Origin: Paramacrobiotus metropolitanus
Taxonomy: Eukaryota > Tardigrada > Eutardigrada > Parachela > Macrobiotidae
Assembly (NCBI RefSeq): GCF_019649055.1
Contig: NW_026570228.1
Coordinates: forward strand, 1,364,001-1,428,000
DNA: 64,000 nt
Direction of reading: 5' to 3'
The notes under the pieces were generated by a model. It did no database searches, was not told the DNA's origin, and was given only the letters and a program-made list of their open reading frames with translations. The position numbers and the translations under genes were made by a program. Of this stretch, positions 3,363 to 57,942 are shown piece by piece (position 1 is the stretch's first letter; each line of letters opens with the position of its first letter).

Positions 3363-4020
3363 TCAAAGGTCACTGCGCAGAGCCAGAAGAAAGCGCAGTG
3401 TTGTGAGGGACAGCTTTTCCACACGTAGTCCGTCCAGTCCATCCATGCATCACTCTTTACCGCGATACTGCAGTGACGGACGCGGATACGCGGTGTGTGT
3501 CGTGGACGTGCACAACACCTGCCAAACATAGAATGCGGTTGAGTGAACAATGAAGTAGCATTTCGCAAACACTGCATCGTCTGCATGTAATCAGTAATGG
3601 AGCCATATTATGTCCTAGCAACGACAACGATATCTGCGAATATTAGTTACAATCGATTGCCAAGAGAGTTGTGTACGAGCTGAAGGAAACAAAAGACCCA
3701 TCAGCACTTCCAAATACGCCACACTGCACTTCCTTAATAATTCTCAATAATTTGAAAAAATTTAGAAGGTTCTCTTACTTTACAGACGGCCCAGCGATAC
3801 AGCTCCAGGCTGTATCGGGGGCTTCGTTCCTCCCACGCGATCGCCGCCAACCACTCCCACAGTGCCCGCATCTCGTCCCTGCTGGGGACCGGTAGCGCCG
3901 CTGCCACCGCATTCCACACCGCAGATGCCACATCCCCGGTCAACGGCAGACGCATCATCATGTCGACATCCAGGCGTAGATTTGCGTCCCAGTCCTGCAA
4001 CAGTTTCGACAGATGCGCTG
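3363..4020 (-). pseudogene. Fragment B1: C-terminal half of an FMRP-N/F-box family copy
   Basis: The minus strand carries the end of exon 2 (about 4020-3779, from LLQDWDANL to AVCK at a GTAAGAG donor) and exon 3 (3518-3363). Exon 3 has a premature stop: the conserved Trp codon after YRGKE reads TGA. The whole N-terminal part is missing because the copy is truncated at about 4020, where an oppositely oriented copy (B2) begins. The lesions make it a pseudogene; orientation and exon order match the other minus-strand copies. Confidence 0.75.
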
Positions 4021-5977: not shown

Positions 5978-6680
5978 GTTTTTAAGAGAAGTGGCCCGGT
6001 ACATGGTACCAAAATCGTGTATATGCACGAAAACTTTCACTTTCGCGCACTCCCAAACCCTTTTTTCTTTTGTTTTATGAGATTCTGTAGTCAGATGATT
6101 TGTATACACAGGCGAGAAAACCGTTTGTTCGCGCAGTATCCGGTTCGGGAGTTATGGCACTAAGAAAATTCCAAAAAGTTTAAATGCATTCAGGTGTACC
6201 AAAAGTCTCGTTATGGACTGATCTCCTTCAAATTTCGCACGTAAATGCACATGGCAATGAAGATCGTTTTTACACCGATCCACAGTTCCACGATTTTTTT
6301 CAAATTTTAAAATGAATTTTAAAATTTTTGAAATTCATTTTAAAATCTGAAAAACATGCTAGAACAGTGGATCGGTGTAAAAACGATCTTCATGGCCATG
6401 TGCATTTACGTGCAAAATTTGAAAGAGATTGGTTCGTAACTTCGTAATGAGACTTTTGGTACACCTGAATGCATTTAAACTTTTTGGAATTTTCTAAGAG
6501 CCATAACTCCCGAACCGGATGTTGCGCGCACAAACGGTTTTCTCGCCTGTGTGTACAAATCATCTGGCTGTAGAATGTCATAAAACAAGAGAAAAAAGGG
6601 TTTGGGAGTGCGCGAAAGTGAAATATTTCCTGTATGTACACGATTTTGGTACCATGTACCGGGCCACTTCCCTTAACACC
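5978..6680. repeat. About 700-bp foldback (inverted-repeat) element
   Basis: Two arms of about 330 bp are near-perfect inverted copies of each other. The left arm starts near 5983 (GAAGTGGCCCGGTACATGGT) and the right arm ends near 6675 with its complement. The axis is near 6315-6330 in an AT-rich palindromic stretch. Open frames on both strands here mirror each other and are not genes. No convincing target duplication was found. Diverged pieces of the same sequence lie in the introns of both kinase copies (about 57170-57300 and 62515-62625), and weaker ones near 16960-17260. Confidence 0.85.
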
Positions 6681-7207: not shown

Positions 7208-10085
7208 TTACTGGGCCCACTCTGGCCACTTAAAAGAATTAGTAAGGCAGCCGTGCAGGAGCAGCAGAAAGCGCAGCGTTGTGCGAGACAGTTTCTCTAG
7301 ACGCAGATCCTGCAGGCCATCCATGCACCACTCTTTCCCGCGGTACAGCAATGACGGACGCGGATCCGCGGTATGCGTCGAGCACAACACCTACCAAATA
7401 AAGAATAAGTTTGAGTAAACATTGAAGTAGCACTTCGAAAACACTGCTTGTAATGGCGCAATACTATTATCTATCAGTACTCGTACCACAACGGTATCTG
7501 CAAATATTAGATACAAGTGTCAAGAGACTCGTGCACGAGATGAAGAAAACAAAACCTATTTTTTAAAACGCGACACTGCACTTCCCTAATGATTAGAAAA
7601 AAATTTCAAAGATTCTCTTACTTTGCAGACTGCCGTGCAATTCAGCTCTTGATTCTCATCCCGCGCGATCGTTGCCAACCAATCAGACAGCGCCCGCATG
7701 TCTTCTCCGCTGGGGGCCGGCAGCGCCGCTTCCATCGCATTCCACACCGTCGACGCCACATCCCCGTTCAGCGGCAGACGCGTCCTGGCCATGTCGACAT
7801 CCAGATGCAGATCTGCGTCCCAGTTCCATAACAGCTCGGACAGATCGTAGCGCAATCGGACCCGGCACCCCACCAGATGGATGACGTCACACGGGAGACC
7901 GCGGAAAGCTTCAATTAAACTCTCCAGGTGACTCACACAAAAGTGCGGACGGTCAAGCTCGAATAAACCTTCGGGGTAACCCTCCAAAAATATCGGCCCC
8001 CCGAATTCGTGTTCGGGATGGTGCACATCGCAGGTCTCCGGATCCAGGTCGCCATAGCCTAGGTCCGGTTCCGAGACCAAGTTTGTAATGCCGACCGCAT
8101 ACAGCGCTGTTAGACGGATTTCGGGACGGGTTCGTGCCAGGAAGTGAAGCATGTCCAAAATGGTAAGTAATTCCTCCATTCCGATGCTGTGTTGACGGTC
8201 ATGGATGATAACGCGCTTGGTGAAGGAGTGCAGACCTTTAAAGAGGGGAGCCATGAGGGAATACTGAAGGTCCAGCTGGCGCTCGCTAGCAACACTCGCC
8301 TCGATGACAATGTTGGCCGTGAGGACAGCGGTGTCCAAAATAGCGTCCCAGGCTGGGCACACCGCGCGCAGTTTAGTCTGGGTCAGTGTATCCAGATGAG
8401 CGAACACTTCCTGCCACTCGGCCACACCCAGAGCACGTGATTCATCCGATGTACCACAGACAGGCAAATGTTCAACGGGAGTCGTAATCGCACGCATTCA
8501 CAGCATTTATCCTCAGCTGGTAAGAGTGGAGGCATCTAGGGAGTAGGATTCCCCGCCCGGGTACCGTACCCCGGGCACGATGCCATGATGTTAAGTTGCT
8601 TCAAGCCGAATCCCTCCACCGTTCTCCAACCGGCATCCGCGAACCCCCGCCTCGATGAGGTTTAGGAAGCCCATCTTCATATTGTTCCCGTTTACGTTCC
8701 CTTAACCGAGTGATGTATGCGTCTCTTTTCGTTAAACACGCGTCCTCGCCCTAGATGCCTGGCGAATTCTATCATCACTCTCAGACTGCCTAGCATGGCT
8801 TTGAGCTGCATGACGAACTCTTACGTTCGTTTTGGGCGCACCACAACCCTCTGCAGCCAACAATTATTGCATGATACTCCACATCAACCACTTTAAACCT
8901 ATCTCTGATTTTCTGTGTCAGGCGTTGGTATTTCTCCACCTTGGCATTATATGCCTCACACAGTTTGTGCTTACTGTCATCCCAACGGACTGCCACATCA
9001 ACCACGTAGGCTACTTTATCCTTGCACGCTACGACGTCAGGCCTTAACATACCGACCTCCGTGTGAAACTGCACTTCCCTCCGACACTTGGTGCCGTTTT
9101 TCCCAAGTTCTGTACAGACAAACTCACAGATGTCGTTATGCCGACCAATCCACGCAGGATGCCCGGGAGGCGACCAATCAGCGCTTTTTGCAACGGCCCA
9201 ACAATTTTCTGTAGCAATCAACAACAATTCAAAAAAAATTCCAGACACCGATTAATCCCGTGACATGTGGTAAATCTCACTGGAAGGAAGACGGATGAAT
9301 TATAGACGAATGAGTATTAAGGCTGCTAGCGGATAATTGTGTTTAAAAAATTTCAACATATGCCAATTTACCTGTGCCATATCATCCGCTTGCCGCTGCG
9401 GAAATTTAGCGTCACCGTTAAGTTCCACAATAAAATGCAGATGCTCCTCCACGACATCAACACAGACCACCTGTCCTTGGCGTGCCCGTTGGTGCTTAGC
9501 CTGCACTGCCCGTACCACCTCCACCACCTGTCCTACTGACACTGCACGACACTCGTCCGGCAGCTGTATACTGCGCTTGACAAAGCGTCCCGGTCCGATG
9601 GGCACCAGACGCGTGACCGCCAACATCCCTGGATCCTCCCGGCGTGAATCCGGCCCCGAGACGTCCTGGACGGGATAACGGAGGCGGCACTTGGGGACGA
9701 TCTCCGTCCAGATGGCACCGCTGCCCTCCCGCCCCTGGACGACAGCCACCGTGTAGTAATCAAACGGGAACGATGGTCCAGTCCCCGTCAGACTCTCCAG
9801 TTCCCCGGGCCACCAACGCCACGCGCCACCGGGATATTGACGGCGCAGCACTTCCACGGGAAGGGCCGATGATGGCGCCAACGTTAAAACGGTATAATAA
9901 TCCCGTTCTGTGAAATGTCGGGGCTCGGATAGGAAGAGACGGTGGAACGGGATGAGTTCGCGTCGGCGGTCGCGGCACAGTAGGTCGATGAAGAGCCCGT
10001 TGTCCGCTACGTCCACCACGCGCCCATACAGCAGGACGTTGTTGTCGCCCAATACGTTAATGTCACGGGTTCGCGCCACAAACAT
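7208..10085 (-). pseudogene. Copy C: FMRP-N-like / F-box fusion gene split by a retrotransposon
   Basis: Exon 1 is 10085-9372 (238 codons): two Agenet/Tudor-like barrels (RRELIPFHRLFLS; EVLRRQYPGGAWRWWPGE; IWTEIVPKCRLRYP) and a KH0-like end, with a CAG|GTAAAT donor. Exon 2 begins at 9208 after CTACAG, is interrupted at 9151 by a non-LTR fragment, resumes at 8490 and ends at 7622 (AVCK|GTAAGAG); its F-box lies near 8370-8450. Exon 3 is 7390-7208. Without the insertion and one CACGCA copy, exon 2 is 927 nt, exactly in frame, so a 607-residue protein would be predicted. There are no other lesions, which points to a recent insertion. As it stands the frame is broken unless the element is bypassed. 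Confidence 0.85.
8497..9150 (-). mobile_element. 5'-truncated non-LTR retrotransposon with restriction-like endonuclease
   Basis: The insertion is flanked by a 6-bp target duplication CACGCA (8491-8496 and 9151-9156). The minus strand encodes about 120 residues of a C-terminal domain with the R-P-D-V-V...VVDVAVRW pattern, followed by AYNAKVEKYQ and a C-terminal Cys/Trp segment. This is typical of the PD-(D/E)XK endonuclease of R2/NeSL-type elements. The reverse transcriptase is absent (5' truncation). After the stop near 8790, about 290 bp of apparent 3' UTR end next to the duplicated target. It sits inside exon 2 of copy C in the same orientation. Confidence 0.85.
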
Positions 10086-10873: not shown

Positions 10874-13481
10874 ATGCACTTATACGATAATGCTGAACGA
10901 ACTCTGGACGCGTGGAACTCTGTGGATGCGGAGATTGATGGCCAGCTGCAGCATGGCTGCGTCGTCGGCCTGGAAGACAAGTCAGGGGAGCGACAGCACT
11001 CCGCCGCGTCTGATTGTCGATTTCGGATGCTCGGCACAACGGGCAGTACTCGTCGAATATGGGAAGATCTGGGACTGTTCCATACTTCGATGCACGCGTG
11101 TGCGCCAAGGGGGACGAGGTGGAGGTCTTGCTGCACGACGGTGCGGATGGCCCGTGGAAATGGTATCCCGCGAAAACGCTGATGCGACGGTTCAAACGCT
11201 TTCATCATATGGCGCTGGTGGAGGTCACGATGGACGGGCAGGCTCGTCGCGAACTGCTTCCCTGGACACAGATTCGCGATCGCGCGGAAGAAACAATTAA
11301 GCCGGAACCCATTGCAGCGGGCCATTTTGTCCTGCAGACTTGCAGCGTGCCTAACGGTTTCTGGGCTCTCCAGCCGGCCTTATCGGCACGGCTTCTCCGC
11401 CAAATGGAACGCAACTTGCATCTGCGGTTTGTTAAGGTGCTCAGCCAGGAGATGCATTATTTGATGGTGCAATGGCGATCAGAGGCACCTTTGAGTGACG
11501 AAGATGTGGTAAGAAGTGGTTTCTACTCGTAGTGTCTGCTACAAACAAAGTTTTAAATATTTATTTTAGTTATTTTTAATATGAATCATATATCAGTTTT
11601 ATTTTTTAATTGTAACATTTATTTAAGCATCGCGTAACTTAATTTGAATAAATTTTAATTCGTTGAAATACTTTAAATTAAATTTAATTTTAAATTTAAT
11701 TTAATTTAAAGTAATTTAAATTTGTTACAAATTAAAATTAATTTAAATTTCTGTAGGAAAAAAACAAAATTACAGTAATATAAAGTAATTTAAATTTCTA
11801 AAAAACATTTTTTTCACAGCAATTTGAATTAATTTTAATTTGTCTAAAAAAGTTTTAATGGGCTACGCTTGCGGACTTCCTTACCGTAGGTCGTTGAGTT
11901 CGAAAACCAGAGAAAGGAGTCCACGGAGGGTGAAGCGTACCAAAAATTGCTCCAGAAAAGCGAAGAGTGGGATGCTGAGCCGAAGCGGGAACAGCCGCTG
12001 GCTGTGGAGGAAAGCGGTTTGCCGTTGTCTTTGAATGTGCTGCAGGAGGTCTTCCTGGCTCTGGACTCCATCGAGCAACAGCGCTGCCGCCGCACCTGTC
12101 AGCTGTGGGAAACGATGCTCACGTCGGCAGAGGTGCGCTCCGTTGTGATGGTTGCACGCCAGAATCCCAGCGAATCAGCCAGAGCGCTGTGCAATGGGAA
12201 TTATCTGCTGTACGCCGGCATCTTCAAGTGCATCGCTCCGGCAACCCGCACTATCTGGATTCGCGATGCCATAACGCAGTCCCGCCGTCGATGGAACCTG
12301 AAAGTGGCCCATGAAGTTGTAGCCCTAATTAAGAAGTTCTGTGACGATGCTGGCCTTCACATCGACCGTCTGATTATAGACCAGCGATCGATTAAGATCT
12401 CATATGATTATTCGTGGGGATTGATGGCTATGGATGTCTTCAAGCATTTGTCTCAGCTCGTGTCGTGCTGTGATCGGGTGATTTTGAAGAATTATGTGCT
12501 GGCACGGTTGGACGAGGAACGCGCGCCCTTGTTGGAGTTCCGTATTCCCGCTGCCGTCTTTACCCCGGGACAGGTCGATGCGGCGCAGACTGCGGACATC
12601 CTGGAGCAGCATGTGCACTATGAAGGGCCCCCGATGGATGTGCAGCGTATTGCGCTGTACTTGGCCAATCGGATCGGTGAGAAAGAGAAGGCCAAAATGG
12701 TGAAAAAGGTACTGACACGTTGAGAATTATCTTGCAACGGCTCTCCTAAATTGATAAGCTGAAAAACAGACCAAAACACCAAAAGTAGTATAGTTAATTT
12801 TTTTAAACTAAAGCATAGATTGTTTGTTCATCGGAACGGATTTTGACAGTTATTTTCCAGCAATCTTGGAATTTGTTTTAAAATTCGAAAAGACCGCAGG
12901 AGCGTTTCAGTTGAGTGTTGTGCTAATCAGGGCCACGTTTCCAGGGGAGAAAGGGCCAGCCTGAACGAAGGCACTTTCATTGAATCTGAGAACAGCGGTT
13001 GTGGAGATTTTTTCGGTTAGCGGTCACTGTTTTTCCTTGAACCCGGTGTGCTTTTGTAGTTCGATTTTCGATACATTATTCAACCGTGCTGTGATACATC
13101 ATCTTAAGATTTTTTGTCGGGTGTTGAAATTGCTTGGTTATTCTGCAGATTTTGAGAGAATACCTGTCCAGGGATCCGCGTCCATCCGCGCATTACCGAA
13201 ACCATACCTGGACGCTGGACAACGTGGCCAGTGTGGACACGGCCAAGCTGAGCCGCATGTGCCTGCACGCTTTATGGCGCTGCATACAGGACTGGGGGCC
13301 GGCGTCCCCGCCTGACAACGCACCAGTTGAGCCATCCAGCGTGTCCAGCAGTGGATACATCATACATCGCATCCAGGCCCTCCGACGAGGGCGAGGAGTG
13401 AAACGTGGAAACTTTTTCAAGATTGCCGAACGGTGTAATGTTCACTTGCTGGCTAGACTGAATAGTAGAGGAACTGTTTAA
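10874..13481 (+). pseudogene. Copy H: plus-strand divergent FMRP-N-like / F-box family member, frameshifted
   Basis: Exon 1 (10874-11508) gives the FMRP-N-like part in three successive frames. It starts at MHLYDNAERTL, shifts near 10985 to the frame of PPRLIVDFGC, then near 11090 to the frame of GDEVEVLLHDGADGPWKWYP. Each shift is one extra base relative to paralog I. Exon 2 (11890-12708, 273 codons) is fully open with an F-box-like segment (LPLSLNVLQEVFLALD...CRRTCQLWETML). Exon 3 (13149-13481) has the PRPSAHYRN and LSRMCLHALWRCIQDW tail, but its end is frameshifted relative to I. Splice phases between exons fit. It could be a young pseudogene; sequencing errors in exon 1 would be the alternative. 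Confidence 0.65.
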
Positions 13482-17625: not shown

Positions 17626-19552
17626 CTATTCCGACCACAGGCAAAATCCAAAAAGATTGCTGCGCAGAGTCAGCAGAAAGCGCAGCGCAATGCGGGACAG
17701 CTTCTCCAAGCGCAGATCCTGCAATCCATCCATGCACCATTTTTTCCCGTGGTAATCCGTGGACGTACGTGGATCCGCGGTCTGCGTTGTGCATAACAGC
17801 TATCAAACAAAAAAGAACCCACTTGAATAAAAACTGAATGAGCACTCTTGAGAACACTGCATCGCCCAGATAACTCAAGACTGCCTTACTTTGCAGACTG
17901 CATTGCGATACCGCTCCTGGCTCCCATCCATCGCAATCGTCGTCAACCACTCCGACAGAGGCCGCAGCTCATCGTCGCGGGGTACCGGCATCGCCGCTTC
18001 CATCGCATTCCACACCGTGGACGCCACATCCCCGTTTAGCGGCATACGCGTCTTGACAAAGTTGACATATAATTCCACACGCGCGTCCCAAGCCTGCAGC
18101 ACATCCGCTAGGTCGTAGCACAGGCGCACCCGACACCGCACCAGATGGATGACAGCGCACGGCAGATCGCGACACGCGGCGATCAGGCCATCGAGGTGGC
18201 CCGCGAAAGGCGACTCTGCATCGGGAAGGTGCACCTCGCAGTATTCACGGTACATGGCGACAGATTTCGAGAAGTTCGTGCTGCCGACCACATACAGCGC
18301 CGTCAGACGAATCGCGGGATGAGTTCGCGCCACGAAGTGAATAATATCCAACACCATCAGGAAGTGTCCCATGTCGATGCTTTCGTCGCGATCATAAATA
18401 ATTACTTGCTTGGTGGAGGAGCGAAAACATTTAAAGAGGGGCGAAAGAAGGATGTATTGCACATCAGGCGAATATCCGCTGACAGCGCCCGTCTCAATGA
18501 CAATGTTGGCCATCAAAGTAGCCGTACTAAGGATAGCGTCCCAAGCTAGACACACGGTGCGCAGCTTGGTTTGTGTTAAGGTGTCCAAATGGCCAAACAC
18601 TTCCACCCACTCCCAGTGCAAGGGATTCATCCGGCGTCTCGCCGATATCCCAATATTCAACCGGCGCCGTCATCGCATGCAGGATGGCCGGAAGACGGCG
18701 AATCAGCGCTTTGTGCGCCGCTCGAACTATTTTCTACAATAATCAATACCAACGGTCTGGTGAAATCGATGAAAAGAGACGGACACTAAGACCCCCAGTG
18801 TGGTTAACCCGGCTGCAGTGAGGCAGTGACGAATTAGCTTACCTCTGCCATATCTTCGGCTTGCCGCTGCGAAAACCCGACGTCACCGTTCAGCTCCACG
18901 ATGAAATGCACTTGACCATCCGCGACATCGACGTGAACAACCTGTCCTTTAGAGGCCCGTTGCTGTTTAGCCGGCAGCTCTTTGATCACCCGCACCACTT
19001 GTGCTGCTGACGCAGCGCGACAGTGGGCCGGCAACGGCATACTACGCTTGACAAAGCGTCCCCGTGCAACAGGCAGCAGATCCGTCACAAGCCCCTTCTC
19101 TGAGTCCTGTCAGCTCGCTCCGTCCACCAGTCAGCCGGAACAGGATAACGGAGGCGGTGCTTTGGGACAATGTCCGTCCAGGTGGCGCCGCTGTCGTCCT
19201 GTCCTTGGACGAAAGCCACCGTGGCGTAAACCATCCAAACCAATGAGTGCGGCGCCGGATTCAGCATGTTCCCGGGCCACCAGCGCCACACCCCGCCGGG
19301 ATACTGACGGCGCAGCACGTCCATGGGGACTGTCTCGCAAGGCTGCTCCCTCCAAATGTTATCATATTCCCAGTCCTCGGATTGCATGGATCTGGATAGA
19401 AAGACACTGTTGAATGGGGCAAATTCGCGTCGCCGATCTGGACACAGCAGATCGATATAGAGCCCGTTGTCGGCCACGTCCACTACGCGGCCATACAGCA
19501 CGACGTTACCGTCGTTGACTACGTTGATGTCACGGGTCCGTACAACAAACAT
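17626..19552 (-). pseudogene. Copy D: FMRP-N-like / F-box family member with two frameshifts
   Basis: Exon 1 (19552-18843) is open from MFVVRTRDINVV to DWWTERAD, then shifts one base near 19090-19115 before continuing as LLPVARGRFVKRSMPLP to QAEDMAE at a GTAAGC donor. Its 710-nt length is not a multiple of three, as expected from the indel. Exon 2 (18733-17890) opens KIVRAAHKAL but loses bases just before the F-box near 18620, then stays open (EWVEVFGHLDT... to AVCK|GTAAGG). Exon 3 (17799-17626, 57 codons plus stop) is intact. Two independent frameshifts argue for a recent pseudogene; two sequencing errors are the alternative. Confidence 0.75.
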
Positions 19553-20443: not shown

Positions 20444-22527
20444 TTAATCGGCCCATTCATCAGATTTAGCAAGGCAGCTGTGCAGGAGTAGCAGAAAGCG
20501 CAGTGTAGTGCGAGACAGCTTCTCCAGACGCAGATCCTGCAGTCCATCCGCGCACCATTTCTTCCCACGGTACTGCAATGACGGACGCGGATCCGCGGTA
20601 TGCGTCGTGCACAACACCTACCAAATAAAGAATAAGTCTGATGGGGAATGGAAAACGGAGTAGTACTTCGAAAAGACTGCATGTAATCGAGCCTTCCTAT
20701 TGTTAGGTATATCTGTACTCTGTTCGACAACGGTATCTACGAATATTAGATACTTATACAGATTGTCAAGAGACTCTTGTACGAGCTAAAGAAAAGAAAA
20801 ACCTATTTCCCAATACGCCACACTGCTCTTTCCTAACGATCACCTAACAATTCCAGTCAGATGAATTTCAGAAGATTCTCTTACTTTACAGACGGCCGTG
20901 CGATTCAGCTCTTGGTTCTCCTCCCGCGCGATGGTCGCCAACCAATCTGACAGTGTCCGAATCTCGTCCCCGCTGGGGGCCGGCAGCGCCGCTTCCACCG
21001 CGTTCCACACCGTGGATGCCACATCCCCGTTTAGCAGCAGACGCGTCCTGGCCATGTCGACATCCAGGAGTAGAAACGCATCCCATTTCTGTAACAGTCC
21101 CGACAGATCGTAGCGCAGTCGCACCCGGCACCCCACCAGATGCATGGCGCTACACGGTAGACCGCGGCATGTTGCGATTAAACCCTCCAGGTGACCCTCA
21201 AAATACCCGTTGTCGGGATTGTGCACGTCGCAGGCCTCCGGTTCCATGATGTCACGGTCGAGATCCGGTTCTGAGGTCAATTTCGTAACGCCCACCGTGT
21301 ACAGCGCTCTTAGTCGGATCTCGGGACGGGTCCGTGCCACGAAGTGAAGCATGTCCAGCATAGTCAGAAATTCCGCCATTCGGATGATGTGTTGGCGGTC
21401 ATGGATGATAACGCGCTTGGTGAAGGAGTGCAGGCATTTGAAGATGGGCGCTGTGAGAGTGTATTGAAGACCAGGTAGACGCTCGCCACCCACGGTCTGG
21501 ATGATGATGTTGGCCGTCAGAAGCGGAGTGTCCAGGATAGCGTCCCAGGCTGGACATACAGCGCGCAGTCTGGTCTGTGTCAGCGTGTCCAGATGGGCGA
21601 ACACTTCCTGCCATTCGTCCACGCCCAGGGCACGCGAGTCATCCGATGTCCCAGAGATACGCAAATGTTCAACGGGAGCCTTCACCGCGCGCAGGATGCT
21701 CGGGAGACGACCAATCAGCGCCTTATGCAAAGACGCAACAATTTTCTGTAACAATCAACAACTCACCAAAAGCCAACAACAAGCGACAGACTCGAATTAA
21801 TACAGTGAAATGTGGTTATTTTGACTGAAGGAATATGATGGAGGAATTATGGACGAAAGACTATTTAGGACACCCTCGGATAAGTATCCCTACGAATGTG
21901 CAACAAATACCGATTTACCTGCGCAATATCATCCGCTTGCCGCTGCGGAAATTCAGCGTCACCGTCCAGCTCCACTATGAAATGCGCCTGATCATCCGCG
22001 ACATCGACACAGGCTACCTGCCCTTTGCGCGTCCGTTGGTGTTTTGTCTGCACTGCCCGTATCACCTCCGTCACCTGTCCTGCTGACGCTGCACGACATG
22101 CGCCCGGCAGCGGCATGCTGCGCTTGACAAAGCGATAGGGTCCAATTGGCAGCAGACGCGTCATCGCCGACACCCGTGGGACATCCGGGCACGAGTCCTC
22201 TAGCACCGGATAACGGAGACGGTGCTTGGGGACGATGTCCGCCCAGATTGCCCCGCTGTCCTCCTGCCCCTTGACGACAGCCACCGTGTAGTATTCACAC
22301 GGAAAGGATGGTCCCGTCCCTGTCAGTTTCACCAGTTCCCCGGGCCACCACCGCCACGCCCCACCGGGATATTGACGGCGCAGCACTTCCACGGGAAGTG
22401 TCACCCATGGCTCCAACGTCGAAACGATTGCATAATCCCGTTCTGTGAAACGTCGCGGCTCGGATAGGGATAGACGGTTGAACGGGATGAGTTCGCGTCG
22501 ACGGCCGCGGCACAGCAGATCGATGTA

Positions 22528-25368
22528 GGGTAAAATCGCAATATATGGATATGGCCAGATTTGCATAAAATGGACTGATCCTTTATGTTTCCTACTCAGA
22601 ATTTTTTTCTGAATCGAATGGACCGGGACAACAATGGTTCTGAAGTCACGTGACTGAGCTCCAAGCTAATTTGCATAAAGGTGCCTTGCTATAACTTTTT
22701 CAGGAACTTTCAAGCAAAAGTGGTCATTTTATAGCTTGTTTGGCTCAGAAAAAATTTCCGAGTCGAATGATATATAACTCATGCGGATGTAAAGTCACGT
22801 GACCAACTTATGCATTTTTTGCCTGTTATGGGCAATTTGTTATTGTGGTGGTTTTGACAGAAGGTTCGTATGACGTCACGAAGACTGAATTTTTTAAGTC
22901 GAAAGCTCGTGACCTTTTAGCACGATAGGGTCATCCAAAGGTCATGGCTCAGTACGGCTTGTAATAGCAAGTTATTCACTTCTAGCAATTTCCGGTGCAT
23001 GGGACCTAGAAACCAAACAAACTGAAGAATCCTAAAAAAGTCAGAAACCTGAAAAACCACCGCCAAAATAAATCGTAAGAAGCGTAACCAGTAAACTGAG
23101 TTACCTAAGAAAAACCTAAGAAACTCCCGCTAGCAACTGTAACTTGGTTTCCACGAAACAGTAACTTGGTTTCCACGAAACAGTAACTTGGTATCCCGAG
23201 CAAGAACTCTAAGAAACAGTAACCTGGTTTCCCGAGAAAGGACTCTAAGAACCAAGGAAACCACTGCTAATATAAAACAGCATATTGCGTTACGGTGTTA
23301 CCTAAGAAAGAGACCCTAAGAACTTCAAAAACCAGTAACTACCATCAGAAACCAGAAAGAAACCAAATAAGAATGCAATAAAAACTAAGAAATTACCTGG
23401 AGAAAGTGAAAAATAAGCTAGCATCTGTGCTCAAACATTGCTGTGAGTTGTTACTGTTTCTGTCTCGTTTAATGAAAGGAGTAGCACTGCTGTGGGGTGT
23501 TACTAGTTCTGTCTTGTCTAAAGAAAGGAGTATCACTATTGTGAGTTGTTAATTCTTCTGTCTCGTTTAACGAAGAATGTAGCATTGCTGTGGGGTGTTA
23601 CTAGCTCTGTCTTGTTTAAAGATACGAGTAACACTGCTGTGAGTTGTTACTTCTTCTGTCTCGTTTAATGAAAGGAGTAACACTGCTTTGGGGTGTTACT
23701 AGTTCTGTCTTGTCTAAAGAAAGGAGTAACACTATCGTGAGTTGTTAATTCTTCTGTCTCGTTTAACGAAGGATGTAGCATTGCTGTGGGGTGTTACTAG
23801 TTCTGTCTCGTTTAATGAAAGGAGTAACACTGCTGGGGGGTGATGCTACTTCTGTCTTGTTAAAGAAGGGAGTAACATTGCCGTGAATTTTTACTTCTTC
23901 TGTCTCGTTTAATGAAAGGAGTAACACTGCTGTGGGGTGTTACTAGTTCTGTCTTGTTTAAAGAAAGGAGTAACACTGCTTTGGGGTGTTACTAGTTCTG
24001 TCTTGTCTAAAGAAAGGAGTAACACTATTGTGAGTTGTTAATTCTTCTGTCTCGTTTAACGAAGAATGTAGCATTGCTGTGGGGTGTTACTAGCTCTGTC
24101 TTGTTTAAAGATACGAGTAACACTGCTGTGAGTTGTTACTTATTCTGTCTCGTTTAATGAAAGGAGTAACACTGCTGTGGGGTGTTACTAGTTCTGTCTT
24201 GTCTAAAGAAAGGAGTAACACTATTGTGAGTTGTTAATTCTTCTGTCTCGTTTAACGAAGAATGTAGCATTGCTGTGGGGTGTTACTAGTTCTGTCTTGT
24301 TTAAAGATACGAGTAACACTGCTGTGAGTTGTTACTTATTCTGTCTCGTTTAATGAAAGGAGTAACACTGCTGTGGGGTGTTACTAGTTCTGTCTTGTCT
24401 AAAGAAAGGAGTAACACTATTGTGAGTTGTTAATTCTTCTGTCTCGTTTAACGAAGAATGTAGCATTGCTGTGGGGTGATGCAACTTCTGTCTTGTTAAA
24501 GAAGGGAGTAACATTGCCGTGAATTTTTACTTCTTCTGTCTCGTTTAACGAAAGGAGTAACACTGCTGTGGGGTGTTACTAGTTCTGTCTTGTTTAAAGA
24601 AAGGAGTAACACTGCTGTGGGGTGTTACTAGTTCTGTATTGTTTAAAGAAAGGAGTAACAACGCTGTGGGTTGCTACTTCTTCTGTCTTGTTTAAAGAAA
24701 GGAGAAACATTACTGTGGGCGGTAACCGGTTGATATCTCGTTTAAGGAAAGGAGTAAGGGCTGTTGGCTGTAACCAGCCCATATGTCTCGATTAAAGAAG
24801 CGAATCACCTAGCTGTGAAGTGCGAACAAACAAACAGTTTGAGAAACCTGAAATATCTTGCGAGAAAATAGTTGGCTAAGTAATAACATTACCGCGTAAG
24901 TAACTATAATTTAATCGTAACTATTTTCGGTATTGACCTTTGAGACCTAGCTTGACCTTTACGACTGAAAAAAATTTCTGAGTCGACCGTGTCATTTATG
25001 ACTTACATATGACGTCAACAGCAGGAATGAAGTATTAAACTCCTAAAATCCAGAAAATGATTGAATAAATCGCTATTAAATTCATAACTTAGTCAAGTGA
25101 TCTCGCATCCACGTGATTCACATATCATTCGATTCAGAATTTTTTTCTGAACAAAATTAACTATAAAACGTGTGCTTATCAAAGGTATTCCATACAAAAA
25201 CTATAACAAAGCACCTAATATGCAAATTAGCCCGTAGCTCAGTCACGTGACTTCGGATCCGTTCCTGTCCCGGCTTATTTGATTCAGAAAAAAATTCTGA
25301 GTAAGAAACAGTCAAAATCAGTCCATTTTATGCAAATCTGACCATATCCGTATATTGCGATATTGCCC
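22528..25368. mobile_element. 2841-bp non-autonomous DNA transposon with long TIRs and internal minisatellite
   Basis: Flanked by the 6-bp target duplication GATGTA (22522-22527 and 25369-25374). The ends are inverted: the left begins GGGTAAAATCGCAATATATG, and the right, reversed, begins GGGCAATATCGCAATATACG. Inverted similarity continues for about 280 bp on each side (about 22528-22810 and 25085-25368). It includes repeated TCAGAA...TTCTGA and GTCACGTGAC blocks. No transposase frame is visible inside. TSD length and GGG ends do not let me assign a superfamily confidently; Dada, IS3EU or a relative are options on TSD length only. Confidence 0.88.
23440..24790. repeat. Minisatellite array, about 49-bp units, inside the transposon
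   Basis: About 27 imperfect units of roughly 49 bp alternate between a GCTGTGGGGTGTTACTAG type and a GTGAGTTGTTAATTCTTCTG type. Each contains a CTGTCTYGTTTAA core and AAAGGAGTAACACT. Several units are grouped into higher-order repeats of two to four units. A shorter array of about 22-bp units (GTAACTTGGTTTCCACGAAA) precedes it at about 23138-23230. This is not CRISPR: there are no unique spacers and the DNA is eukaryotic. Confidence 0.88.
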
Positions 25369-25771: not shown

Positions 25772-27689
25772 CTAGGGGGGGCGCTTCGCGCCCCCCCCCC
25801 AGGGGGCTGCAAATTTTTGGTCCTGCAATCCACCCGTGCACCATTTCTTCCCGCGGTACTGCGCGGACGGGCGCGGATCTGCGGTCTGTGTCGCGCATAA
25901 CAGCTATCGAAAAAAAAGAATAAAAAATAAATCAGAACTCTGAAAGCAGTGCATTTCCCAAATGGCTTACTGATAACTGCTGCATTAGAAAATTCGGCAG
26001 ATTCGCTTACCCGGCAGACTGCAATGCGATACCGTTTCTGCCTCCCGTCCGCAGTGATCGTTTTCAGCCACTCCGCCAGCACTCGCATCTCATCGTCGCC
26101 GGGCGCCGGCAACGCCGCTTCCACCGCATCCCACAGCGTGGACGCCACATCCCCGGTCAGCGGCAGCCGCGTCTTGACGAAATCAACAGACAAGTTCAAA
26201 TTCCACTGCCCATGAGCTTTCCGAAACCCTTTCAGGTCCGTGAGACGGTACGTGAGACGCATCTGACATCGCACCAGATGAATGGTAGCACACGGCAGAT
26301 CGCGGCAAGGTGCGATCAGAGCATCGAGGTGGTCTCTGAAGAAGGGCGCCGCCACGGGAACGAAGCCGGGAAGGTGTACGCCGCACCATGCACTGGTCAC
26401 TGAGACGTATTTCGACAACTGGGTGACGCCGACCGCATACAGCGCCGTCAGACGGATCCCGGAATAGATTCGCGATACGTAGCGAAGCAAGCTCAACAGG
26501 CCGTCCAAATCCGCCAAGGTGACGCATTGGCCGCGATCGTGAAGGATAATATGTTTGGTGGCAGAGCGCAGGCAGTTGAAGAGCGGCGCCGTGAGAATGT
26601 ATTGCAGATCAGGCAAATGTCGACTGGCCGCGTCCGTCTCGATGAAGATGTTGCCCGTCAAGGTAGGCAACTCCAGTACACCGTTCCATGCCGGGCACAC
26701 CCCACGGAGTTTTGTCTGTGTCATCGTGTCCAGATGGGCGAACACTGCCTGCCACTCATCGATACCCAGGGCGCAGGGTTCATCCCCCGTCCCGCAGATA
26801 TGCAAGGAATCATCAGGAGCCTCCACTGCACGCAAGATTCTCGGAAGACGATCAATCATGGCCGCAAGCAAAGCCAAAACAATTTTCTGTAACGATCAGC
26901 ACAAACATTTTGCCAGAAACCGATGAAAAGAAACGGACACTAACGATCACTGGTTAATCATTGCCTAGTTATCGTACCTGAGCCTTGTCTTCGTCTTGCC
27001 GCAGCGGAAACCCAACGTCACCATGCAGGTTCACAATGAAGTGCAACTGTTCATCCGCGACATCGATACTGATCAGCTGTTTGGAGACCCGTCGCTCTTT
27101 AGCCTGCATCGTCCTGAACATTTTCAGGAGTTTTGATGCCAGCGTCGCACGACACCCAGCCGGCAACGGTACACTGCGCTTGACAAAGCGTCCCGGTTCA
27201 ATAGGCCAAAGACGTGTCACAGTGTGCGTCGCCAACGTATATCCCCCCGCAAAGTGATCCGTCCACCAGTCTGCTGGCACCGGCAACGAAGGCGGTGCCT
27301 GGGGACCAGGTCCGTCCAGGTGGCGCCGCTGTCCTCCTGTCCCTGAACGACCCCCGCTGGAGGGTGGTCAGACCAAAACGATGAGGTCGGCGCCGCATTC
27401 AGCAAGGTCCCGGGCCACCAGCGCCACGCCCACCGGGATACTCCCGCCGGAGCACTTCGACGGCGATCGTCTCCCATGAGCGCCGCCTCATGTTGGTACC
27501 ATACTCCCAGTCGTCGAAGTGCATGGGCCGGGACAGAAAGAGGCGCTCGAAAGGGACGAGTTCGCGTCGACGGCCGGGGCACTTTAGATCGATGTAGAGC
27601 CCGTTCTTCGCCACATCCACCACGCGGCCGAACAGCAGAACGTTTCCGTCGCCCACTACATTGATGTCTCGGGTCCGTGTCGCAAACAT
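25772..27689 (-). pseudogene. Copy F: FMRP-N-like / F-box family member with frameshifted exon 1 and replaced exon 3 end
   Basis: Exon 1 (27689-26978) starts MFATRTRDINVV and carries two one-base losses. One is in the PGG(A)WRWWPG motif near 27433, the other after HRLR near 27290. The KH0-like part (FVKRSVPLPAGC) is open in its own frame to a GTACGA donor. Exon 2 (26886-26011, 292 codons) is fully open with the F-box DEWQAVFAHLDT. Exon 3 starts at 25903 normally (LLCATQTADPRPS...WCTGGLQD), but the conserved LRLEKLS tail is replaced by QKFAAPWGGGAKRPP and a TAG at 25772-25774, encoded by a GC-rich hairpin sequence. It is closely related to copy G. Confidence 0.75.
25775..25812. repeat. GC-rich hairpin at the breakpoint in copy F exon 3
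   Basis: GGGGGGGCGC, a TTC loop and GCGCCCCCCC form a strong hairpin, followed by a CCCAGGGGGCTG stretch. It replaces the conserved end of exon 3. It is probably the end of an inserted element whose other end is not obvious. Confidence 0.6.
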
Positions 27690-28534: not shown

Positions 28535-30904
28535 GAATGCTGAACGATCTCTGGACGCGTGCAACTCTGTGGATGTGGAGATTGATGGCCAGCTGCAGCA
28601 TGGCTGCGTCGTCGGCCTGGAAGAAAAACCAGGGAACGACGGCACTCCGCCGCGTCTGATTGTGGATTTCGGATGCCCGCCACAGCGGGCAGTTCTGGTA
28701 GAATACGGGAAGATCTGGGACTGTTCCAGACAGCGATGCGCTGGTGTGCACGTGGGGGACGAGGTGGAGGTGCTGCTGCACGACAGTGCGGATTGCTCTT
28801 GGAAATGGTTTCCCGCGAAAACGCTGATGACGGTTCAAACATCTACAGCATACGGCGCTGGTTGAGGTGATGGCGGACGGACAGGCTCGTCGCGAACTGC
28901 TTCTCTGGTCACAGATTCGCGACTGTGTGAGAGAAGCGGTTAAGCCGGAACCCATTGCAACGGGCCACTTTGTCATGCACACGTGCAGCGTGCCTAACGT
29001 TTATTGGATTCTGCTCCATAAAATGGAACTCAATTTGTAGCTGCGGTTTGTCACGGTTTTCAACCAGGAGATGCACTGTTTGATGGTCCGACGGCGGCCG
29101 GAGTCGCCGTTGAGGGACGATGTGGTAAGTCGTTTCCAAGTAGTGAATTCAAATTATTTTTGATTTTCTAGTTTATTTTAATTATTTTTAATTTAAATTA
29201 CAATTTAAAACATTAATAATAATTGTAAGTTTCTTTTCTTAAACATCAGTTTAACTTGAATTAATTTTAATTCGTTTGAAATTTAAATTAATTAATTTTA
29301 ATTTGATAGACATTTTAAAAAATATTTTAATTTGTCTTAAATTTTTCGTAATGGGCTTGCGGAATCTCTTACCGTAGGCCGTTGAGTTCGAAAGCCAGAG
29401 AAAGGAGTTCACGTAGAGCGAAGCGCTCGAGAAACTGATCCAGCAAAGCGAAGAGTGGGATGCGGAGCCGAAGCGGAAACATCCGCTCACTGTCGACGAA
29501 TGCGGTTTGCCGTTGTCGCTGAATGTGCTACAGGAGGTCTTCCTCGCACTCGACACTGTCGATCAACAGCGCTGCCGCCGCACCTATCAACTGTGGGAGT
29601 CGATGCTCACGTCGGCGGAGGTGTGCTCCGTTGTGCGTGTCGCTCGCCAGAATCCCAGCGAATCAGCCGGGGCGCTGGGGAATGGCAAGTATCTGCTGTA
29701 CGCCGGCATTGGCAAGTGCATTACGTCGGCCACCCGCACTGTCTGCATTCGCGATGCCATACGCCCTCCGTGTATCGATGGAACCTGCGCGTTGCCCATG
29801 AAGCTGTTGGTTTTAAGAAGTTCTTGGACGCTGTTGACCTGCGCCTTGACCGTCTCATTATGGACCAGCGCTCGATCAAGATCGCATTCGATCGTCCATG
29901 GGCACGGCTCTCTGTTGACGTCTTCTCGCATCTGTCTGAACTCGTATCATGCTGTAAGCGTGTGATTTTGAAGAATTATGTGCTGGCTCTGTTGGACAAG
30001 AAACGCGCGCCCTTGATGGAGTTCCACATTCCCGTGGCCGTCTTTATCCGGGGACAGATCGATCAGGCGCACACTGTGGACATGCTGGAACAGCATCTGC
30101 GTTGTAGAGGGCCTCCGATGGATGTAGAGCACATTGCGCAGTGTTTGACCATCGGATCGATAGGAGAGCGAAGGCCAAAACAGTGAAAATGGTACAACAT
30201 TGGCATCGGCGCATCGCTGTGTGCTGATATGATGACATCTCGCATCGGTTAAAAACATTCTGCATAAGTTTCCATAAACTTTGAAAAGTTGAGAATGCAT
30301 TATGCAACGACTTCCATCAAGTTTTGGGTGATAAAACTCACAACATTAACGGTTGTTCTGCAGTGAAATTGGTTTAAGCCATCAGCTAGGTAATTGCAAA
30401 TTCTAGAGTACGTCTTGGAAATTTAAAATTATATCAAGTTATGGGTGTAATGTTGATTGTGAATGTGGCACGCGGTTCCGGCTGGCCTGAAGGAGTTTTT
30501 GACACTGTTGAGTGCAGACACGAACGCCGTGCACCTGACGAACAGTTCAATTTTCGCGAACACCCAAGCCCTTAGTTGTTATGGATTTTAAGATGTATTA
30601 TTTTGTTTGAGCGTGATACAAGGCACATATGATACCAAATTTAATTTCCTGTATATTTGTGCAGATTCTGGAAAACTATCAATCCTGCGATCCGCGTCCC
30701 TCCGCAGAGTATCGAAGTCACATTTAGACACTGGACAGTATGAACAAAGTGGACGCAGCCAAACTGAACCGAATGTGCCTGTACGCGTTATGGCGCTGCA
30801 TACAAGACTGGTCTCTGCATGGCGACGCACCAGTTGAGCCATCCAGCGAATCAAGCAGCCGGTACAACAGTGATTACGTCGATCCCGACGACGGCGAGGA
30901 GTGA
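28535..30904 (+). pseudogene. Copy I: plus-strand divergent family member, decayed
   Basis: Paralog of H. The exon 1 region is open from NAERSLDACNSVD to KTLM and shows the FMRP-N-like pattern (RLIVDFGC, GDEVEVLLHDSADCSWKWFPAK). It has no ATG in frame, a two-base loss near 28830 and a TAG near 29038. The exon 2 region (from about 29383 after CCGTAG) has a TAG near 29416 and a frameshift near 29765. The F-box-like part (LPLSLNVLQEVFLALDTVDQ) remains readable. Exon 3 (30665-30904) has TAG in place of the Trp codon found in H. Its end (DYVDPDDGEE, TGA) probably shows the ancestral C-terminus. The copy is clearly non-functional. Confidence 0.8.
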
Positions 30905-31542: not shown

Positions 31543-33518
31543 TTATATCTGTAAACGTAATAAACCCCACCACGCAGAGCATCCACTGGATCCAGAATGC
31601 CATCCAGAATGATTGCTGCGCAGAGTCAGAAGAAAGTGCAGCGCAATGAGGGACAGTTTCTCCAAGCGCAGATCCTGCAGTCCATCCGTGCACCATTTCT
31701 TCCCGCGGTAATGCGATGACGGACGCGGATCCGCGGTGTGTATCGCGCATAACAGCTACCAATGAAAAGAACAGCGCTCGAATAAAAAAGACAGTGTAGT
31801 TTCTAATAATTTTCTCTTCAGAACATTCACCAGATTTGCTTACTCTACAGACTGCCCTGCGACCCAGCTCCTGGTCCCCATCCGCAGCGACCTTTGTCAA
31901 CCACTCCGACAGCGATCGCTTCTCGGCGTCGCCTGGCACCGGCAGCGCCGCCTCCACCGCATCCCACACCGTGGACGCCACATCCCCGTTCAGCGGCAGA
32001 CGCGTCTTGACCCAGTCAACGCACAGCTGCACATACGACCGACGATCGCCCCAACTCCGCAGCACTTCGTTCAGATCGTAGTCTAGGCCCATGCGGCACC
32101 GCACCAGATGGATGACAGCACACGGCAAACCGCGACACGCTGCGATCAAAGTATGGAGATGGCGCGGGAACCGAGGCGGCACCCCCGAGACACTCCAGTC
32201 GAACCGGTGCACCTTGCAGACAGAACCGGTAATGCGGACGGATTCCGAAAACTTCGTTACGCCAACCAGATACAGCGCCGTCAGGGAGATCCCAGGGCGG
32301 ACTCGCGCCAGATAGTGCAGAAAATCTAACACCATCAACAAACGTCCCTTCTCGATGCACTGGCCTCGATCGTGAATGATAACCCGTTTGGTGGAGGGAC
32401 GCAGGCAGTTAAAGAGGGGCGCCGTGAGAATGTATTCCAGGTCGGGCAAGTCTCGACTGGCAGCGTCCGTTTCGATAATAACGTTGGTTGTCAAGGTAGG
32501 CAACTCCAGTACACCGTTCCATGCCGGGCACACCCCACGGAGTTTTGTCTGTGTCAGCGTGTCCAGATGGGCGAACACTTCCTCCCACTCATCGATACCC
32601 AGGGCGCAGGATTCATCCCCCGTCCTGCAGATATGCAAGGAATCATCAGGAGCCTCCACTGCACGCAAGATTCTCGGAAGACGATCCATCATGGCCGCGA
32701 GCAAAGCCAAAACAATTTTCTGTAACAATCAGCACAAACATTTTGCCAGAAACCGATGAAAAGAAACGGACACTAATGATCACTGGTTAATCATTGCCTA
32801 GTTATCGTACCTGAGCCTTGTTTTCGTCTTGCCGCAGCGGAAACCCAACGTCACCATGCAGGTCCACAATGAAATGCAACTGTTCATCCGTGACATCCAT
32901 GCTGACCAGATGTTTGGAGACCCGTCGCTCATTAGCCTGCATCGTCCTGAACATTTTCAGGAGTTTTGATGCCAGCGTCGCACGACACCCAGCCGGCAAC
33001 GGCACACTGCGCTTGACGAAGCGTCCCAGTCTAATAGGAGAGAGACGTGTCACCCTGTGCGCCGAATCCGATAACGTAGACTGCTGCTCAAACGGATCCG
33101 TCAACCATTTGGCTGACACAGGATAACGAAGGCGGTGCGTGGGTACAAAATCCGTCCAGGTAGCGCCGCTGTCCTCCCGCCCCTGGACGACAGCCACTGT
33201 GCAGTACCCCGACGAAAACGAGGGGCTCCGCGCCGGATTCAGCATGGTCCCGGGCCACCAGCGCCACGCCCCACCGGGATGTTCACGGCGAAGCACTTCG
33301 ATGGGTATCAGTCCCCTCACGCCGTCAGCATATCCCCATTCCTCGAATTTCAAGGGTCTGGACTGGAAGATCCTGTTGAACGGGATGAGTTCGCGTCGAC
33401 GATCTCGGCACAGCAGATCAATGTACAGTCCGTTGTCCGCCACGTCCACCACGCTGCCAAACAGCAGGACGTTTCCGTCGCCCACTACGTTGATGTCACG
33501 GGTCCGTGCCACAAACAT
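31543..33518 (-). CDS. Copy G: intact FMRP-N-like / F-box fusion protein, 598 aa
   Basis: Three exons, all phase 0: 33518-32811 (236 codons), 32719-31844 (292 codons) and 31755-31543 (70 codons plus stop), with introns of 91 and 88 bp. Residues about 13-58 form a first Agenet/Tudor-like barrel ending RRELIPFNRIF. Residues 70-135 form a second (IEVLRREHPGGAWRWWPG; GATWTDFVPTHRLRYP). Residues 163-222 look like the KH0 segment of FMRP (GRFVKRSVPLP ... DEQLHFIVDL). The F-box spans about 279-311 (DEWEEVFAHLDT...VCPAWNGVL). The next 215 residues are mixed helix/strand with no recognised repeat. The tail has the family motif ADPRPS..YRGKKWC.DGLQDLRLEKLS, and the end of exon 3 is extended relative to paralogs. 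This is the best functional copy in the window. Domain assignment rests on motif pattern and order only. Confidence 0.82.
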
Positions 33519-35357: not shown

Positions 35358-41914
<6,557 letters not shown>

Positions 41915-56220: not shown

Positions 56221-57942
56221 AAAAAACCGATGACATATTGTCAGTGTGTGAATTCAGAAACATACAGTAATGTCTCACGTAAGACTAACACGAACAAACT
56301 GTTTCTTCGAGTAGACTGGAATTTACCAGTTGTCGTATCGCGGTTAAGCGGCATTTGTCCAATACCTCACAGGAAATTGGCACGATTAATTACAGTAACT
56401 CAGTGAAAATTGTTTGCTGTTGATTAGATTTCTTATGGTTTTCAACAAACTTCAAGAAAAGATTTCGTGTGTAAAGTGGCACTCAGCGTAGTAGCACAAG
56501 TTTATTGCCTGTTGCTTATCACAGCTGCTGACTGAGACCGGGTTCTTTCCGCATTTTTGATAGCAACGTTATTTCGACATCTATTCTGGCGGAAACCGCG
56601 TTAAACAAGCATGCGACTACCGGTATACATAGTTTGTTCGTTGACGTTGCCCGTAGTTCGTGCGGCTTTGCAAGGCGCCACAGAGAGAACGCAGCGAACT
56701 TTCGGTGCTTCAGACTTTACCCGTATTTTCTCCATGGATTCCTTCGAAAGCAAGTCAACGGGCAGTAACTGCCAGTACATGCTGTCTAGCTCGAAGAACT
56801 TTTGGCGTGGTGTATCGCGCAAGAATTACGGAACGCGGTGATTTTGTTGCCGAAGACCACTATGTCGCAGTAAAGGTCAATCATTTGGACAGCGAGGCAA
56901 AATTGTTCAGCGGTGTCTATACCTACAACTGGTTCAGTCTGATGCAGCCTTGGGAAAAATGTTGGCGTTCAAACAGGATCCTCTGGTCAACTATCATAAA
57001 GCCTACATTTTCCGGGGTATCGGTGCACCAGCTATATAGAATTCATGATGGATTTTTGCAATGGTAATTATTATGGTCTCAGACAGTAATGATTATTAAT
57101 AATGTTGTTTTGTTGTTGTTAATAATCAAACCATTAGGTCTCCACTAAATTATTGTTGAATCTTCAAAGAAGTGACCCGGTACATTGTATCACTTAATAT
57201 CGTTGTACTTGCACGAGGGCTTTGGCTTTCGCGCAGTCCAAAAATATGATTGGTTTATGACATTTCGTAGCCAAATGTTTTCGTAGGCATTGTTTCACTA
57301 CTGGGTAGTGCTGTAGGCACTGCAGTGTCTGCAGTGTCTCAGTGCAACATTTTGTCTATCATCCACAAACAGAAAATGCAGTTAACCGGAGTGTCTGCTT
57401 TCAGCTTTGAATTTTATTTAGGCGGAGACTTGGTTTCTTTGTTAAAGAAACACAAAAAGGACGGCCCTGTTCTGCATCCATCAACGGTCATCTGTTACGG
57501 AGCACAGATTTCGGAAGGTGTCAGGTTTCTGAACCAGAACCACATCATCCATGGTGACTTAAAACCGGGTAACGTCCTCGTCAAGTACCGCAATGACCAC
57601 CACCACCACCAAATGATGATTGGCGATCTAGACAATTTTGTCCAAATAAAGCGCAGCGTCAACACGTCCAGCATCTCCGTGGTACCATCATGTACATGTC
57701 ACCCAAAATGCTCAGGAAGTCCTCACTGGTTTTCGAGGACGTGCCGGGACGGACATTTGGAGTCTGGGCTGCATCATCCATGATTTGGCGCACGAATGGC
57801 TACGGCATCGCCGAGCGGGTCCTGCACAATACGACGACCGTTGTATCCGATCGCGATGACGTATCACTATCACAGCATACAAGCGCCAGCATGATCGCCG
57901 GGAAATTAATCGACAGTTACGTGCCAGTGACAGGGCCTTGAT
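56221..57942 (+). repeat. First copy of a 1.7-kb tandem segmental duplication
   Basis: From the ACCGATGACATA block near 56225 to about 57940 this segment is collinear with about 61565-63240 (offset about 5.3 kb). The two share upstream sequence, exon 1, the intron and most of exon 2 of the kinase-like gene. Confidence 0.85.
56734..57942 (+). pseudogene. Dead copy of the Ser/Thr-kinase-like gene
   Basis: Exon 1 homology (56734-57063) begins MDSFESKSTGSNCQY. Relative to the intact copy it lost 14 bp just before the glycine loop, lost one A near 56958 in a run of As, and has a small insertion near 57035. Exon 2 homology from 57422 retains GDLVSLLKKHKKDGP and HIIHGDLKPGNVLV, but has a deletion and frameshift near 57680 (after SSIS) and another near 57740-57760. 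Homology ends in a truncated region near 57940. Multiple frameshifts make it a pseudogene. Confidence 0.85.

Follow-up and report, generated by a model that had tools for sequence, protein, structure and literature searches.

An FMRP-type tandem Tudor module in front of an F-box in a tardigrade gene family

In a family of predicted genes from the tardigrade Paramacrobiotus metropolitanus, an N-terminal half homologous to the tandem Tudor part of FMRP and FXR proteins (here called the head) is followed by an exon that is predicted to carry an F-box. The homology of the head is supported by family profiles and by fold comparison. That the two exons form one gene is indicated by an order and strand that are conserved and by recurring phase-0 splice sites, in the absence of transcript data. 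The family was studied from a window of 64,000 nucleotides (contig NW_026570228.1, positions 1,364,001 to 1,428,000), which holds nine copies apart from fragments. Judged by reading frames, copy G is the only one that is uninterrupted; with eight of the nine broken, many local copies may therefore be dead or misassembled (Table 1).

Exon 1 of copy G contains two Tudor/Agenet barrels and a KH0-like stretch, the content of an FMRP-type N-terminal module, and its junctions with intron 1 and exon 2 read CAG/GTACGA...TTGTTACAG/AAA. The donor of intron 2 starts with GTAAG in all five window copies that could be aligned, and the DNA alignment of these copies places a common acceptor and third exon 88 to 267 nt past that donor. 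The third exon joins the second in phase 0 and reads LLCAIHTADPRP..., and its stop codon falls exactly at 31543, the coordinate at which the first-pass annotation had ended the gene. Differences between copies of exon 3 number 31, 24 and 56 at codon positions 1, 2 and 3, respectively (six comparisons among four copies, 111 nt). A genome search with exon 3 gave 97 matches; the query was another frame of the same DNA and not the frame later judged to be coding.

Table 1. Copy G, its parts and the other family copies, in window coordinates
Feature	Positions	Strand	Description
Copy G, whole predicted gene	31543-33518	minus	three exons, 598 aa predicted
Copy G exon 1	32811-33518	minus	236 aa; open frame and splice site; PDB profile, Foldseek
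Copy G Tudor/Agenet 1	33351-33497	minus	residues about 8-56; terminal motif IPFNRIF; alignment to FMRP/FXR chains
Copy G Tudor/Agenet 2	33117-33311	minus	residues about 70-134; IEVLRRE...WRWWPG...VPTHRLR
Copy G KH0-like stretch	32811-33038	minus	residues about 161-236; from model, inside Foldseek alignment to FMRP
Copy G intron 1	32720-32810	minus	91 nt, phase 0, GT-AG
Copy G exon 2	31844-32719	minus	292 aa: leading helix, F-box, C-terminal beta/alpha region
Copy G F-box	32471-32605	minus	exon 2 residues 39-83, or 275-319 of the joined protein
Copy G intron 2	31756-31843	minus	88 nt; donor GTAAGC
Copy G exon 3	31543-31755	minus	70 aa and stop; conserved tail, frame LLCAIHTADPRP...
Paralogue a	3-1704	minus	exon 1 976-1704; exon 2 3-752, runs past window; stop inside exon-2 match
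Paralogue b	4056-5460	plus	interrupted frames, opposite strand
Paralogue B	7390-10085	minus	exon 1 9372-10085; exon 2 7622-8497, stop in match; exon 3 from 7390
Group-2 paralogue	10916-12720	plus	Tudor exon in several frames; F-box exon frame 11890-12723
Paralogue D	17799-19552	minus	exon 1 in two frames, exon 2 likewise; exon 3 from 17799
Paralogue C	20617-22620	minus	exon 1 21919-22620, unlike N-terminus; exon 2 20885-21745; exon 3 from 20617
Paralogue F	25903-27689	minus	exon 1 pieces 26978-27689; exon 2 26011-26886; exon 3 from 25903
Group-2 paralogue	28563-30171	plus	interrupted frames

Other features lie among these copies. A 49-bp direct repeat array (23338-24811) may have split paralogue C: on one side of it, near 25.4 kb, lies a 33-residue N-terminal piece and on the other the remainder of the copy. 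An isolated F-box exon end (3779-4012, minus strand) lies beside and opposite paralogue b. An inverted repeat of 232 nt (5982-6213 and 6445-6676, 92% complementary, 231 nt apart) has frames similar to ones that recur, by eye, at another locus (L042), which suggests a dispersed repeat. An open frame between exons 1 and 2 of paralogue B (8790-9251, minus strand) resembles by eye the endonuclease end of a retrotransposon. Beyond the cluster, an SR-related splicing factor like SR140/U2SURP (38694-41080, minus strand) and kinase-like genes (56657-57783 and 62043-62450, both plus strand) were recognized by eye.

Relationship of the head to FMRP and FXR

A profile built from 26 hand-picked, diverse members was compared with 177,635 distinct PDB sequences. 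Six sequences of FMRP, FXR1 and FXR2 came out on top (E 2.1e-13 to 1.4e-11) and the next match, uL24m, followed at E 0.016; the alignment to FMRP/FXR spans both barrels and enters the start of KH0. With a profile of 45 exon-1 sequences, six FXR1, FXR2 and FMRP sequences again ranked first (E 2.9e-4 to 3.5e-3), followed by uL24m at 0.094. The protein of one locus, L070, retrieved FMRP from the PDB as a single query (E 4.1e-10) and also matched the genome's own FMR1 (C5:3433548-3433949, E 1.7e-7); the same locus has an F-box above the Pfam cut-off (C49:51116, 36.9 bits). When the 45-sequence alignment (A1) was compared with the genome's own FMR1 by hhalign, a probability of 94% was obtained; the controls gave at most 33% (100 shuffles) and 0.2% (reversed sequence).

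Exon 1 of copy G as a single query retrieved neither an FMRP entry or relative from the PDB nor an FMRP-type Pfam model, and the profile of group 2 alone found no FMRP. The homology therefore rests on the family and not on copy G in isolation. For group 1, to which copy G belongs, 23 of 30 joined models (the 30 kept from 46, with L012, L017, L029, L031, L033, L034 and Wc left out) went into a profile that covers exon 1 and the 28 residues with which exon 2 starts. It gave FMRP/FXR as the best five PDB matches, at E values of only 0.067-0.12.

Structure prediction agrees with the profiles. The AlphaFold model of exon 1, for which no sequences from outside the window were used, has low confidence (pLDDT 56.3), and both barrels are present in it, so that the outcome which would have refuted the initial claim of two Tudor barrels was not met. 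In copy G numbering the modelled strands are 9-13, 16-27, 30-34, 43-46 and 50-54 for the first barrel and 71-78, 85-92, 108-114 and 120-126 for the second. The Foldseek search that had been proposed as a check returned FMRP/FXR chains at ranks 1-10 (best E 1.3e-7 over 216 columns), and other Tudor-type folds appeared after them, from E 0.03 upward. TM scores by query length were low, at 0.38-0.41 for the six chains with KH0 and 0.23-0.25 for the four without. VIA-align likewise placed three FMRP entries at the top, with 164-177 residues aligned at rmsd 8.3-8.6 and Z 7.8-8.0, against Z 5.8 for the row that follows; these Z values are middling taken alone. Taken together, the family profiles, the L070 protein, the alignment to the genome's own FMR1 and the Foldseek ranks bear out the earlier proposal of an FMRP-type tandem Tudor module.

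The evidence is thinner for the KH0 domain that the same proposal included. In the low-confidence model this stretch runs strand, short helix, helix, strand, strand (E167-173, HHH 176-178, H183-196, E202-209, E213-220). The type I KH order, according to the part of the source available, is strand-helix-helix-strand-strand-helix (PMC9603430). Thus exon 1 as modelled supplies the first five KH elements, and exon 2 is predicted to open with a helix (2-21). As a test of KH0 completion, a profile that included this leading helix matched FMRP/FXR more weakly (E 0.067-0.12), and the alignment ended short of the helix, which may still supply the last element. The element order, the Foldseek coverage and the entry of the profile alignment into the domain agree with the claim, whereas the KH0-like stretch as sole query had no significant sequence match. 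Only the model and the first part of the domain carry the label, and we say no more than that the head probably includes KH0.

FMRP residue numbering was transferred to the family through the PDB profile alignments. W87 and R131 in the second barrel of copy G are identical in 45 of 45 aligned members; all 45 have Trp at the position of FMRP W80 and Arg at that of R113. The putative methyl pockets of FMRP involve F32 and Y96 (PMC5430443, seen in part). The F32 position is aromatic in 20 of 43 members, Y96 in 14 of 45 and both in 8 of 45; L005 and L008, for example, carry Phe/Trp there. Invariant W80 and R113 together with variable F32 and Y96 indicate that the fold is kept while the pocket varies. 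Copy G has Leu at the F32 position, Gly at Y96 and Trp at the position of Y103, and the first two of these make the suggestion that it reads methyl-lysine doubtful.

The genome also contains other genes of related type. Its own FMR1 is a separate gene (L041, C5:3433812; Tudor_FRX1 E 7.9e-11), with one open frame of more than 600 aa, no intron there and a Tudor-KH-KH-RGG order by eye. Two more FMRP-type Tudor exons exceed the Pfam Tudor_FRX1 cut-off (L042 at C106:65813, and C209:97496); L042 has no F-box-exon match in the stretch examined, and repeats come after its Tudor exon. Two further loci (L043 at C57:921797 and L044 at C481:2993) represent another Agenet-type family, its frames about 300 aa long (NYGNTVLV...WWLGYVQD...). 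In the stretches examined it has a weak score with the head profile and none with the F-box-exon profile. A genome search with the Pfam Agenet model gave seven matches, none above the cut-off and one of them a family member (C8:1234270).

The F-box exon and its connection to the head

At a threshold of E≤0.1, 40 of the 44 exon-2 members match the Pfam F-box model (best 1.4e-8) and 29 the F-box-like model. Against the PDB, the exon-2 profile gave five matches up to E 10, all to F-box-containing proteins, with FBXL3 first (E 0.0083, in the F-box region). These matches support the earlier assignment of an F-box to exon 2, and its location, put at residues 275-320 of the joined protein, differs from ours by a single residue. 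The F-box of copy G itself falls below the Pfam cut-off (E 0.016; 15.5 versus 20.5 bits). The model of exon 2, at pLDDT 48.5, is a poor one and shows strand-helix units after the F-box. It has helices at the F-box (42-52, 55-63, 65-71) with pLDDT below 50 there, and therefore neither proves nor refutes the F-box fold; a fold search with it gave no match. For the C-terminal region, weak LRR-type rows were obtained (NLRC4 and an SCF-SKP2 entry, Z 4.2-4.8). Glutamate-receptor rows equalled them in score (Z<5), and the quality of the model does not allow an LRR to be called. No LRR family is among the families matched by the 44 exon-2 members, and FBA2/FTH are absent from the six families that these members match at E≤0.1. 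The Pfam matches of exons 1 and 2 include no KH family, and the translation contains no RGG.

In all of 40 loci (L001-L040), which had been chosen beforehand as places with both halves, the head exon and the F-box exon share a strand and the head exon comes first. Both halves were listed in order at 50 of 63 loci in a first search (109 matches) and at 37 of 66 in a second (103 matches); a missing half shows little here because only the best candidates get scored. Of 46 modelled entries, 43 were given a phase-0 intron by a splice scan that demanded frame consistency and set no phase in advance; the three exceptions had the lowest scores. Two of the 46 models duplicate a gene already among them (L045/L049 and L047/L048), and a few (such as L021, L022, L026 and L033) took a non-homologous junction; eight entries were left without a model and six, having no profile match, were skipped. 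For seven diverged loci, scanned only past the KH0-like hairpin, the best model was phase 0 in six (the exception being L059), and the acceptor was often ambiguous. A first impression that some copies are intronless, based on long open frames, was rejected when introns were found in most on reading; L003 and L012 have an intron-sized insert without a stop. On this conserved order, strand and splice phase, the claim that exons 1 and 2 form one gene holds as a prediction from DNA, still without transcripts.

Family size, alternative readings and proposed function

The genome searched comprises 169,799,020 bases on 533 contigs. Pooling three queries, we found at least 245 distinct head-exon stretches on 73 contigs, a number that takes in copy G, its neighbours and FMR1, may include a broken copy twice and was reached without confirming the F-box at every stretch. 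At least 149 genome matches to F-box-like were obtained at E≤0.001, all above the cut-off, from the best 150 of 997 rough candidates that were scored. Both totals are lower bounds because each search scores only the best candidates, and the head has probably been multiplied hundreds of times. A head stretch lies upstream, on the same strand and within 3.5 kb, of 37 of the 149 F-box matches; such a stretch lies downstream in 7 cases and on the opposite strand in 5. When 20 of these F-box loci were sampled, a head exon was found upstream in 12 and, through a search with the L070 protein, in 3 more (L062, L065, L068), and none was found at the remaining 5, one of which (L058) had only 879 nt upstream examined. 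The 20 were chosen by hand and not at random (L057 for an adjoining Agenet match, L074 as the best F-box). The search with the L070 protein gave at least 149 matches; of these 149, 148 lack an internal stop (head exon only, FMR1 and some group-2 loci included). Skp1, with four matches in the genome, is not expanded.

Pooled pN/pS values from nearest pairs were below 1 in every segment measured. They were lowest in the F-box (0.43), followed by Tudor 1 (0.48), Tudor 2 (0.60) and the KH0-like stretch (0.64), and were higher in the C-terminal parts (0.74 and 0.69), the leading helix (0.84) and the linker (0.96).

In the absence of RNA data, with only one half listed at 13 of 63 and 29 of 66 loci and with 5 of 20 sampled F-box loci lacking a head upstream, the head and the F-box exon could be separate neighbouring genes or chance neighbours. 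However, order, strand and the phase-0 junction are kept in paralogues of differing age on many contigs, at splice sites that match the consensus, and we consider this reading extremely improbable. Descent of the head from FMRP could be questioned on the ground that none of the members scanned (sets of 45 and 26) matches the FMRP-specific Tudor model of Pfam at E≤0.1, and that Agenet is the only Tudor-type model matched, weakly, by two members in the set of 45 (best E 0.0055) and three in the set of 26 (best E 1.5e-4). The head would then be a generic Royal-family (Agenet) tandem that is FMRP-like without descending from FMRP. Yet FMRP, FXR1 and FXR2 are the only Tudor proteins that the 26-member profile found in the PDB up to E 10, and the Foldseek ranking separates them from other Tudor-type folds, so that we hold a generic origin to be very improbable.

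What the family does is less settled. The clusters, the interrupted window copies and the very high copy number would suit a selfish or largely neutral expansion, by birth and death or as toxin-antidote elements, with little role for most copies. Toxin-antidote elements of this kind exist among nematode F-box genes. Ultra-large F-box families have been discussed as possible genomic parasites (PMC5041008, in the part available). Against such an expansion stand the pN/pS values below 1 throughout and the near absence of internal stops among the L070-search head matches, which leave it quite unlikely. A further alternative takes the proteins to be decoys, whose heads compete with FMR1 or act in RNP granules and whose F-box serves self assembly or turnover and not the ubiquitination of targets. 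The divergent F-box of copy G, the unexpanded Skp1 and a head pN/pS well below 1 would fit decoys, but among all the segments that were measured pN/pS is lowest in the F-box, which also exceeds the Pfam cut-off in at least 149 genome matches, only part of which have been shown to belong to this family. Decoys are, in our judgement, rather unlikely.

We favour, with modest confidence, the reading that the proteins are SCF ubiquitin-ligase receptors in which the FMRP-type head helps to choose the target, a function that is inferred and for which there are no interaction data. According to this proposal, the head would descend from the tandem Tudor (probably also KH0) front of FMRP/FXR, and the F-box would dock on Skp1-Cul1, for which binding data are lacking. 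The head, perhaps with the variable C-terminal region, would hold a protein or RNP partner, and that partner, or something bound to it, would be ubiquitinated. The head would most likely be a protein-interaction module whose specificity differs by copy and not one conserved methyl-lysine reader. Provided that the heads have kept the ability to bind RNP proteins, the family could form an RNP-directed degradation system, possibly for defence. A bolder idea is that most of this tardigrade's F-box repertoire goes back to one fusion event between an FMR1-derived head and an F-box, giving hundreds of SCF receptors that would select RNPs, chromatin or foreign RNPs through the FMRP-type module. We regard it as tentative and somewhat unlikely; if true, it would describe an RNP-directed ubiquitin arsenal (viral or transposon RNPs included) without known animal parallel.

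Comparison with known systems

The N-terminus of FMRP, FXR1 and FXR2 (4QVZ, 4QW2, 4OVA, 2BKD, 3KUF, 3H8Z) likewise has two Tudor/Agenet barrels in the same order, and the likeness extends to the Trp and Arg at the W80 and R113 positions in all 45 members and probably to a following KH0-like stretch that starts F-x-K...P. The family differs in having an F-box where FMRP has KH1/KH2, and copy G in lacking aromatics at the F32 and Y96 positions. Until now the FMRP head has been known from a single small gene family, in which it is a conserved part; in this tardigrade it is multiplied and coupled to SCF by the predicted F-box, and the copies offer a natural set of FMRP-type Tudor modules for learning what the fold can bind.

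In the literature searched, which included no preprints and few subscription journals, we found no fusion of an FMRP-type module with an F-box and no F-box expansion in tardigrades, and the main text of a P. metropolitanus transcriptome study (PMC11191345) does not mention F-box, Tudor or Agenet. As far as this literature goes, the FMRP-type head is new among F-box receptors, and the earlier view that the architecture is new can be upheld for animals. In plants, Agenet proteins combined with an F-box are mentioned (PMC4634149, seen in part): the pairing is the same but, in the part available, is not shown to be FMRP-type or to include KH0. FBXL proteins such as FBXL3 provide the best PDB match of the exon-2 profile, but no LRR family match was found in the tardigrade family. 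In Caenorhabditis, F-box genes have expanded greatly, the F-box being constrained and the substrate part evolving faster (PMC8665587, in part), and the FBA2 and FTH families there likewise comprise hundreds of clustered F-box genes (PMC8665587 and PMC5041008, as far as the parts available report). In those nematode proteins the F-box is N-terminal and FBA2 or FTH follows, whereas the tardigrade family has an FMRP-type module before the F-box, a new receptor design in which the recognition module would stand in front.
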